A DNA stretch of 64,000 nucleotides from Paraurantiacibacter namhicola (GTDB lineage Bacteria > Pseudomonadota > Alphaproteobacteria > Sphingomonadales > Sphingomonadaceae): contig NZ_CP016545.1 of the NCBI RefSeq assembly GCF_001687545.1, positions 1,907,001 through 1,971,000 of the forward strand, written 5' to 3'. A program made the position numbers and the translations under genes. Below, one piece after another: positions 11,581 through 13,580 of this stretch (position 1 is the first letter of the stretch; every line of letters starts with the position of its first letter). The notes under the pieces were generated by a model that was given only the letters and a program-made list of their open reading frames with translations, searched no databases and was not told the origin of the DNA.

Positions 11581-12066
11581 TCATTCCTTGGCTTCTTCCG
11601 CCTCTTCCGGCGTGACCTCGACTTCGGCCTTTTCCGCCTTCTTGCGGCGATCGAACACGGACTTCATGTGCTCGCGGTCTTCATCGGTCAGGTGCTTTTC
11701 GAAATCGGGGAAGTGATCTTCTTCCTCTTCCTCGATGTGGTGGCGGTAATCGTGGTCGAGCTGCTTGAACTTGGTCATCCACGCGCTGGAGGACATGTCC
11801 GTAGCAGCCAGATCGTTCAGCGCCTCGTTCAGCTCGTGATGCTCGGCGACGGAATGGCGCGTCTCGTCCGTGGTGGGCGGCTTGCGCAGCATGGTGGAAT
11901 AGAGCGCCTGCTCCTCGGCAGCCGCATGGCTCTTCACTTCCTTCGTGAACTGTTCGAGCAGCTGCTTGCGCTCCTCGGTCTCGCCGCTCGTCTCGGCCAT
12001 CTTGTCGAGGATCTCGCGATGATGGTCGTGGTCTTCCTTGAGGCGGGCGAAAATATCTTGGGACAT
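11581..12066 (-). CDS. Hemerythrin HHE-domain protein
   Basis: 161 residues, four-helix HHE domain. Candidate di-iron ligands are His15/His16 (HDHHREIL), His48 with Glu52 (SHAAAEEQ), His76/77 (AEHHELNEAL) and His105-HHIEEEEEDH. The C-terminus is a highly charged Lys/Glu tail. Such proteins bind O2, NO or reactive oxygen species in stress responses. It lies 28 nt upstream of the phospholipase-D-type gene on the same strand and may be co-transcribed with it. Confidence 0.9.
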   Translation of the reverse strand: MSQDIFARLKEDHDHHREILDKMAETSGETEERKQLLEQFTKEVKSHAAAEEQALYSTMLRKPPTTDETRHSVAEHHELNEALNDLAATDMSSSAWMTKFKQLDHDYRHHIEEEEEDHFPDFEKHLTDEDREHMKSVFDRRKKAEKAEVEVTPEEAEEAKE

Positions 12067-12156
12067 CGGTGTTCTCCTGCTGTTGCAGGACTAACCGGAA
12101 GCGGCAGGGGCGGTTCCACGATTGCTGGATGTGAGGGAAGAGGCAGCTGGTGTGGC

Positions 12157-12431
12157 GGCGCGCCCGGAAGGATTGGGCACGCGCTGCGCGCGCACCCGTC
12201 TCCGCCGCTGCGCGGCTCCGACTCCGAAGTTCGAACCTGCCGTGACCCGAAACTATAAAGGCCAGCCACCGCAGGGGTGACTGGCCTTTATAATGGCGCG
12301 CCCGGAAGGATTGGCCGCCGCCGCTTCGCGGCTCTGGCCCTCTGCGCGCCTGCGGCGCTTCGAGTGCGAAGTCCGCATCCTCCATGACAGAACCAAACAA
12401 GGCCACCCTCCGGTTGGAGGATGGCCTTGTT
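12157..12431 (-). repeat. 138-bp tandem repeat array built on the tRNA-Arg 3' end
   Basis: This fills the 365-bp gap between the hemerythrin gene and tRNA-Arg. On the minus strand the tRNA is followed by two units of exactly 138 bp. Each unit begins with a hairpin of 17-bp stem and ends with the last 18-19 nt of the tRNA, AATCCTTCCGGGCGCGCC(A). Copies of that 3' end are at 12432-12450 (in the tRNA), 12294-12312 and 12157-12174. The middles are clearly related but diverged (shared blocks CTTCG, GAGCCGCG(A/C)AGCGGCGG). The layout recalls the 178-bp repeats after E. coli tyrT, which also carry a 19-bp tRNA 3' end. No protein is credible here. Confidence 0.88.
12254..12292 (-). terminator. Hairpin of repeat unit 1 (tRNA-Arg array)
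   Basis: Arms 12254-12270 and 12276-12292 form a 17-bp stem (TATAAAGGCCAG...CTGGCCTTTATA) with one G-U-type mismatch. A/T-rich ends on both sides make it terminator-like in both directions. The sequence differs from the other hairpin but pairing is preserved. Confidence 0.7.
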
Positions 12432-12432
12432 T
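12395..12432 (-). terminator. Hairpin directly after the tRNA-Arg CCA end
   Basis: Arms 12395-12411 and 12416-12432 form a 17-bp stem (AAACAAGGCCA.../...TGGCCTTGTTT) with one mismatch and a 4-nt loop. It begins at the last A of the tRNA CCA. Likely terminator or 3'-processing signal. Confidence 0.75.
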
Positions 12433-12508
12433 GGCGCGCCCGGAAGGATTCGAACCTCCGGCCACCTGATTCGTAGTCAGGTACTCTATCCAGCTGAGCT
12501 ACGGGCGC
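12432..12508 (-). tRNA. tRNA-Arg (anticodon ACG)
   Basis: 77 nt with encoded CCA. The acceptor stem GCGCCCG pairs with CGGGCGC, discriminator G. D-arm AGCTCAGCTGGATAGAGT, anticodon stem CCTGA/TCAGG around loop CTACGAA (anticodon ACG, A34 normally edited to inosine), and T-arm GGAGGTTCGAATCC are all canonical. Its 3' end is duplicated downstream in a 138-bp array. Confidence 0.97.
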
Positions 12509-12584
12509 GCGCTAGGGGGCGGCACATAAGCGGGGCATGCGGGCTTGGCAACACCTCTTTGGCCCTGTTTTGGCCAAAACAGGG

Positions 12585-12995
12585 CTAGCCGGGCAGAAAT
12601 TGCAGCAGCTGCCGGTCCATCGGGGCGAGGGTCAGGCTTCCGGCCTCCTGCGCAGTGGCCCAGCGCCATTCCTGCCCGTCATGCGCCGTGATCGCGCCGC
12701 CGGGAAAAGCGCAGGTGTAAAGAAACAGGACAATCGGCATTTCGGGCGATCCCCCGGTCCCTTCGGCGAAGCCTGCCGGCACGAGCGCATGCTCATCCAG
12801 CGTCACGCCCAGCTCCTCGGCAATCTCCCGGACAAGCGCGCGGCGGGGGGATTCCGCGCTTTCCACCTTGCCGCCGGGGAATTCCCATAGGCCCGCGTGA
12901 TGCTTGCCCGCAGGGCGTTGCTGCAGCAGCCAGCGCCTTGCCCCATCCGCCATCGCCACGGCGACGACTGCCATCCATGTCGGATTTTTTTCCAT
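12585..12995 (-). CDS. mutT: MutT-like Nudix hydrolase (8-oxo-dGTP diphosphatase)
   Basis: 136 residues. Expected to hydrolyse oxidised nucleotides such as 8-oxo-dGTP and so prevent transversions. The Nudix box runs from G41 to about residue 63 (GGKVESAESP then REIAEELGV), fitting Gx5Ex7REUxEExGU, and is preceded by the MutT-like QQRPAGKHHAGLWEFPGGK. Length and this motif favour MutT over other Nudix enzymes; substrate is inferred. Divergent from the Flp pilin gene. Confidence 0.9.
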   Translation of the reverse strand: MEKNPTWMAVVAVAMADGARRWLLQQRPAGKHHAGLWEFPGGKVESAESPRRALVREIAEELGVTLDEHALVPAGFAEGTGGSPEMPIVLFLYTCAFPGGAITAHDGQEWRWATAQEAGSLTLAPMDRQLLQFLPG

Positions 12996-13073: not shown

Positions 13074-13265
13074 ATGCGTTTCATGTTCACTCTTGCCCGC
13101 ATCGCAAAATGCGAACGCGGCGCGACGGTGGTCGAGTATGGCCTGATCCTGGCTCTTGTCTTCCTGGCTGTTGCCGGCGGCATCGCAGAACTCGGTTCGA
13201 GCGATGAAGGCGTCTGGACCAATGTCGAGAAGAAGACGACGACCGCGATGAAGGGCAATGTCTAA
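13074..13265 (+). CDS. Flp/Fap-type pilin, first copy
   Basis: 63-residue class IVb pilin precursor. Basic leader ending ...CERG, then the processing region GATVVEYGLIL with the Glu-Tyr pair that defines Flp pilins, and a single hydrophobic helix. A GGGGA ribosome-binding site precedes the ATG. Leader cleavage is expected after the Gly by a TadV-type peptidase. It is followed 141 bp later by a paralogue; the Tad secretion genes are not in this window. The C-terminal half is longer and less typical than in the second copy. Confidence 0.88.
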   Translation: MRFMFTLARIAKCERGATVVEYGLILALVFLAVAGGIAELGSSDEGVWTNVEKKTTTAMKGNV

Positions 13266-13406: not shown

Positions 13407-13580
13407 ATGAAGTTTTTCAACAAGCTGATCCGCGACGAGCAGGGCGCCACCGCAATCGAATACGGCCTGATCGCCGCTCTGATCGCCGTTGCTGCCATCA
13501 CTGCCATGCAGAGCCTCGGCAACGAACTGTCCACGACCTTCAACAAGGTCTCGACCACGATGTCGAAGGGCAACGTCTAA
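13407..13580 (+). CDS. Flp/Fap-type pilin, second copy
   Basis: 57-residue Flp pilin. Leader MKFFNKLIRDEQG, then ATAIEYGLIAALIAVAAI; the Gly-Ala cleavage site and Glu-Tyr pair are canonical. AGGAGA lies 8 nt before the ATG. Both copies end in K-G-N-V, showing recent common origin. A strong terminator follows. Tight-adherence pili made of such subunits are used for attachment and are commonly cell-cycle controlled in alphaproteobacteria. Confidence 0.93.
   Translation: MKFFNKLIRDEQGATAIEYGLIAALIAVAAITAMQSLGNELSTTFNKVSTTMSKGNV

Follow-up and report, generated by a model that had tools for sequence, protein, structure and literature searches.

The window analysed here is a stretch of 64,000 nucleotides from the genome of Paraurantiacibacter namhicola (2.59 Mb, one contig), and it bears a gene for tRNA-Arg(ACG) followed by two successive units, each ending in a renewed copy of the tRNA 3' end (Table 1). 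An earlier note on this DNA had pointed to the recurrence of the last 18-19 nt of the tRNA at an exact spacing of 138 bp, and this is borne out: GGCGCGCCCGGAAGGATT(G/C)G is found at 12157, 12295 and 12433, with spacings of 138 and 138 bp, and the window contains exactly three matches to AATCCTTCCGGGCGCGCC at up to 3 mismatches, against an expectation of 0.30 and with 0 of 100 shuffles reaching three. Both downstream copies are real, but the third ends in G instead of A and has no CCA. The two hairpins named in the note are real as well, with the arms 12254-12270/12276-12292 pairing over 17 nt at 94% (z = -7.0 against shuffles) and the arms 12393-12411/12416-12434 over 19 nt at 95% (z = -10.0). 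When aligned, the two 138-bp units are identical at 98 of 133 positions, with a score of 133 as against a mean of 36 and a maximum of 63 in shuffles; they are homologous, and their most conserved stretches are 12308-12371 and 12170-12229. About 119 bp separate the copies in the window, with no recombinase gene between the repeats. Scans found no promoter match at the array and no terminator-like site at 12050-12600, the T-run being placed inside a stem. Elsewhere in the window, at 13074-13265 and 13407-13580 on the forward strand, two adjoining short ORFs share the Flp/pilin-like motif GAT(V/A)(V/I)EYGLI.

Table 1. The tRNA-Arg(ACG) array of the window, listed from the tRNA gene onwards; bit scores are those of the alpha core model R2
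Feature	Position	Strand	Basis or remark
tRNA-Arg(ACG), host gene	12432..12508	-	first direct copy formed by its last 19 nt (12432-12450, A58 to A76)
Native tRNA trailer hairpin, 19-bp stem including the CCA end	12393..12434	-	same position at the empty sites of genus g101
Unit 1, degenerate inverted copy of tRNA 3' part (position)	12372..12392	-	AGGATGCGGAC vs AGGATTCGAAC
Unit 1, core of two hairpins, with AATCC of the next 3'-end copy at its end	12308..12371	-	R2 61.2 bits, RNA fold, covariation
Second direct copy of tRNA 3' end, CCA complete	12294..12312	-	pattern match and unit alignment
Unit 2, trailer-type hairpin, 17-bp stem, sequence differs	12254..12292	-	arm pairing and shuffle z
Unit 2, inverted copy of tRNA 3' part	12230..12253	-	CGGCAGG-TTCGAAC vs CGGAAGGATTCGAAC
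Unit 2, core of two hairpins, AATCC at end	12170..12229	-	R2 63.9 bits, RNA fold
Third direct copy of tRNA 3' end, 18 nt then G, no CCA	12157..12174	-	pattern match and unit alignment

The note had further regarded the first hairpin of the array as a selected novelty. We abandon this view because the empty sites of relatives show the tRNA and then the hairpin, which stands directly after the CCA at unit-free tRNA-Arg(ACG) sites and is hence the native trailer hairpin; the covarying, conserved structure is the core further downstream rather than the first hairpin. Within genus g101, three genomes (G263, G441, G429) have an occupied tRNA-Arg(ACG) site, two others (G446, G439) keep decayed remnants there, and in five the site is empty, the hairpin following the tRNA immediately or a few bases later. 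Both G441 and G429 have the tRNA 3' end together with the trailer hairpin (~61 bp) on each side of an insert of ~80 bp.

The comparison of loci yields a general layout of tRNA, trailer hairpin, inverted copy, core and direct copy, with a near-constant unit length of roughly 115-150 bp. The trailer hairpin pairs into the CCA end of the tRNA and is separated by ~20-25 nt from the core, a double hairpin of ~48-60 nt lying directly 5' of the copied tRNA 3' end. This copy starts at position 58 of the T-loop (AATCC...CCA), and the core is placed exactly at the 57/58 boundary. The consensus of the core is GTTCGGA-[GTC]-GGA-[GC-GNA-GC]-GGA-[GAC]-[GGCC]-GGA-[GC-GNA-GC]-GGA-[GGCC]-AATCC, in which each hairpin has outer and inner stems separated by a GNA/GNA internal loop and is capped by a GNA triloop. 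In the alignment of 100 cores, built with the structure model R1, 94.4% of the cells are paired and 140 double changes are seen versus 31 in shuffles; the covariation score is 0.263 versus 0.068 in shuffles and 0.01-0.04 in slid-partner controls. Model R1 lacked the first hairpin's outer pairs (columns 8-38, 9-37, 10-36), and the column pair 8-38 is G-C in 59 cores, A-U in 15, U-A in 10 and C-G in 7.

When folded without constraint as RNA, both window cores adopt the comparative structure; when folded as DNA, one of the two does so. C-GNA-G triloops, which are extra-stable in DNA (PMC4686876), make up 64 of the 162 core loops, and GNRA tetraloops 3 of them; this excess of GNA triloops is suggestive of a DNA structure rather than decisive. 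We also considered the depletion of G-U pairs (1.3% in cores versus 8.7% in trailer hairpins) as proof of a DNA over an RNA structure, and dropped the argument because the tRNA stems of the same loci, used as a control, display the same shortage of one-sided changes (3 versus 148 double).

Each unit is customised to its own host tRNA, as shown on 63 loci that directly follow an intact tRNA. The stretch between the trailer hairpin and the core resembles the reverse complement of the 3' part of the same tRNA; TGG stands opposite the CCA, and GGTTCGAACC follows opposite the T-arm. This inverted copy matches its own tRNA better than shuffles (p 5e-12), better than it matches other tRNAs (p 2.5e-8, 51/63 loci) and better than the forward strand (p 1e-6), these p-values being optimistic because the loci are related. 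In the window, the inverted copy of unit 2 is clear (4 of 2000 shuffles equally good), while that of unit 1 is weak (147 of 2000). The direct 3'-end copies are perfect in 36 of the 63 loci, have no more than 3 mismatches over 18 nt in 50, and are strictly closest to their own tRNA in 51; about a fifth of them are truncated.

The note had proposed to look for the unit in related genomes and had named a failure to find it there as a refutation; the unit was recovered in them behind tRNA-Arg(ACG) and other tRNAs. The arginine tRNA given as its setting is correct for this locus, but too narrow, as the unit sits behind more than ten tRNA types: the hosts include tRNA-Arg (ACG, CCG, CCT, TCT), tRNA-Ser (GCT, CGA, TGA, GGA), tRNA-Tyr and tRNA-Gln, and in distant families also tRNA-Leu and tRNA-Met. 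Units at tRNA-Tyr occur in other alphaproteobacteria (L132, L136, L144), and tandem double units are also present at L099, L107, L142 and L231. The home genome has six strong core matches, all of them linked to tRNAs, namely Arg(ACG) twice, Arg(TCT), Ser(GCT), a broken extra Arg(CCT) and Ser(CGA), with no strong copies away from tRNAs. At its tRNA-Ser(CGA) locus (L087, G000:C1:2185000-2193500), the unit has been displaced downstream by a 5.9-kb island that carries a tyrosine-integrase-like gene. Two weak core matches away from tRNAs (L237, G000:C1:1511114-1511153, and L234) both carry GGCCAAAGGCCACCTGCA and GCTTATGC; no tRNA, tmRNA or Rfam family was found at either, and they are perhaps another repeat family with related hairpins.

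At the family level, the unit is found in 37 of 299 sampled genomes (~12%), and in the order in 42 of 298, every one of the same family; sampling of the class added three further genomes from two other, distant families, one of them AT-rich. Of the 16 matches returned by a pattern scan of 84,980 species, 15 come from Sphingomonadales or from other records that look alphaproteobacterial, and in these the core adjoins a tRNA gene or a fragment of a tRNA 3' end; the remaining one, in Streptomyces (L165), was rejected as a chance match in a coding region without model support. R2 also gave phylum-wide matches beyond the known clades (L235, L236), but these are weak, have no link to a tRNA and were likewise set aside. 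Searches of phages, plasmids and viral contigs for the unit gave no matches. Most relatives are without the unit, and it decays; it is therefore not essential. The trailer hairpin of many relatives carries a T6 run, which would stop transcription before the unit. Among Rfam families, a match to ncS011 (22.9 bits, gathering score 48) was discarded as a chance result, since it vanished when the region was searched alone. The Rfam family sX4 (RF02223, Proteobacterial sRNA) matches tRNA-Ser together with its trailer hairpin at L131 and L188 below the gathering score; the sX4 family model may contain a tRNA gene.

The core is also met in other layouts. At tRNA-Arg(CCT), an extra upstream copy of the tRNA interrupted by the core is followed by the intact gene, with the core lying in the T-loop of the extra copy at L079, L096, L098, L130 and L175, and in its anticodon loop at L147 and L153. 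At some tRNA-Gly and tRNA-Gln sites, the core is in the opposite orientation. Insertions into tRNA loops and opposite orientations like these argue for the core being a module that can be joined to tRNA genes. In L096 and L130, a second small two-hairpin insert (the GACCTGCGGTCAGCTTCGCTT region in L096) occupies the anticodon loop of the same broken copy that has the core in its T-loop.

The note had likened the array to the rtT repeats of E. coli, and this analogy is right in substance and goes deeper than had been claimed, as the inverted copy and the hairpins at the T-loop position are common to both. In E. coli MG1655, the RtT model (RF00391) has four matches, one after tyrT and three after tyrV. 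Each E. coli unit comprises, in order, the trailer, an inverted tRNA copy, the direct T-arm strand AAGGTTCG, the hairpins and then AATCCTTCCCCCACCACCA; the inverted copy of tRNA-Tyr spans 22 nt (GGGGAAGGATGAGAAGCTTCGA or GGGGAAGGGTGAGAACCTTCGA vs GGGGAAGGATTCGAACCTTCGA) and is equalled in 0 of 1000 shuffles. The loops of these hairpins are mostly of the C-GNA-G type, three such hairpins preceding the AATCC, and the annotated 3' end of E. coli RttR is the last base of the repeated CCA. Like the window unit, rtT is a tandem repeat behind a tRNA that ends in a perfect copy of the tRNA 3' end from A58 (19 nt in E. coli, 18-19 in the window), and it shares with the alpha units in general an inverted copy of the 3' part of the host tRNA, GNA-loop hairpins directly before the copied AATCC and tandem GA-type motifs, the last of which were noted earlier in RtT (PMC7657543). 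The differences lie in the unit length (178 bp in E. coli versus 138 bp in the window), the host (tRNA-Tyr versus tRNA-Arg and many other tRNAs) and the core hairpins; a further one is that the E. coli units encode tpr. Searches with RF00391 found nothing in the window (E up to 1) or at 20 related loci (E up to 0.05), and R2, the alpha core model, reaches only 14.8 bits on E. coli rtT, with many of its pairs broken. Homology of the core sequences was therefore rejected, and we claim the layout alone as common, not descent. The RtT array is far from constant within E. coli, with 1-10 places per genome (median 3) and 734 of 5426 genomes having no match, and rtT has been listed as a variable-number repeat in Salmonella (PMC2658671). 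We found no descriptions of such repeats outside RtT in open-licence papers.

We consider that the window array stands about an even chance of being a structured repeat of the rtT type, made from the tRNA 3' end and expressed by read-through of the tRNA. Its anatomy, the customisation to the tRNA, the covariation of the core and the layout shared with E. coli rtT are observed. Read-through from the tRNA promoter would transcribe the unit, and the direct copy, alone or together with the inverted copy, might present a tRNA-like acceptor/T-arm end; if matured as a tRNA 3' end, this would release an RNA of ~100-140 nt, as in the case of E. coli RttR. Unequal recombination between the direct copies could add or remove whole units without harm to the tRNA, which might explain the tandem arrays and the patchy presence. 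To our knowledge, transcription of such units is established in E. coli only. The layout, the customised direct copies, the inverted copy, the covariation of the core, the RNA folds, the E. coli parallels and the tandem doubles all speak for an rtT-type repeat, and the T6 trailer hairpins of relatives, the patchy and decaying units, the mismatch with RF00391, the weak R2 score in E. coli and the truncated copies speak against it.

The strongest competing explanation, possible yet rather doubtful, is a mobile or selfish DNA element, in which the core is a hairpin-forming insertion that targets the loops of tRNA genes, is moved by a putative enzyme acting in trans, and persists since an entire tRNA is always restored next to the insertion. 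The cores in the T-loop or anticodon loop of extra tRNA-Arg(CCT) copies, their opposite orientations at tRNA-Gly and tRNA-Gln, the differing presence within one genus and the frequency of DNA-stable-type triloops (64/162) would all fit such an element. Within one genome, moreover, cores at different tRNAs resemble each other beyond chance (17 of 2000 permutations); cores at the same tRNA across genomes do so too (6 of 2000), which on the contrary speaks for inheritance. The core resembles the palindromes of REP/RAYT systems in being made of short G(N)AG-flanked hairpins in tandem pairs, but the unit, unlike REP elements, is confined to tRNAs instead of being dispersed intergenically. The Y1 transposase (PF01797) is absent in 20 of 20 genomes with units and present in 7 of 20 without, and mobilisation of the REP/RAYT type was rejected on this ground. 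Also against a mobile element are the lack of copies off tRNAs in the home genome and of matches in phages, plasmids and viral contigs, and the failure of one of the two window cores to adopt the comparative structure as DNA. A variant that we think unlikely posits a class of tRNA-parasitic elements in at least Alpha- and Gammaproteobacteria, whose core inserts at tRNA loops and whose remaining parts are built by fold-back copying of the invaded tRNA; the loops hit would be the T-loop at 57/58 and the anticodon loop, every unit would thereby be tailored to its host tRNA, and the copying might proceed via a tRNA-derived RNA or cDNA, or a single-strand intermediate.

An improbable alternative is that the array is a functionless scar of replication or reverse transcription, wherein the trailer hairpin primed fold-back copying of the tRNA 3' part, giving the inverted copy, and a switch back gave the second direct copy. 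The order of direct copy, hairpin, inverted copy and direct copy is what fold-back synthesis with a second switch would be expected to produce; the inverted copy begins with TGG opposite the CCA and comes from the same tRNA, and the junction is at A58, a commonly methylated base. Nevertheless, a single core, conserved in sequence and structure, recurs across three distant families and more than ten tRNAs, and this weakens the proposal, as independent scars would not share it.

That the array is the remnant of an integrative element, with the repeats as att sites of a tyrosine recombinase and the interior deleted, appears very improbable. Direct repeats of tRNA 3' ends are typical att sites and, as in the unit, keep the tRNA intact, and the home genome does have the 5.9-kb island with an integrase-like gene at tRNA-Ser(CGA). 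This island, however, used the tRNA's own copy and displaced a pre-existing unit, and its end is without a core. The units, unlike integrative elements, lack an integrase and keep a near-constant length (~130 bp), and att sites leave unexplained both the inverted tRNA copy and a core common to many tRNA types. It is scarcely credible that the units are ordinary terminators copied by chance along with the end of the tRNA, for although the first hairpin is a normal trailer hairpin, the core, the inverted copy and their conservation across genomes refute this on comparative data.

Returning to the reading of the array as a repeat of the rtT type, E. coli rtT, an oddity known from one operon, appears to be part of a wider class, since the alpha units have the same build. 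This class now has a definable anatomy, namely direct copy, inverted copy, double-hairpin core and direct copy, and a covariance model is in hand for finding further units. It raises the question of what copies tRNA 3' ends both ways and sets a conserved core at the T-loop. With units at no fewer than ten tRNAs, these repeats bear on the evolution of tRNA genes, on tRNA processing and on the sites at which islands integrate.
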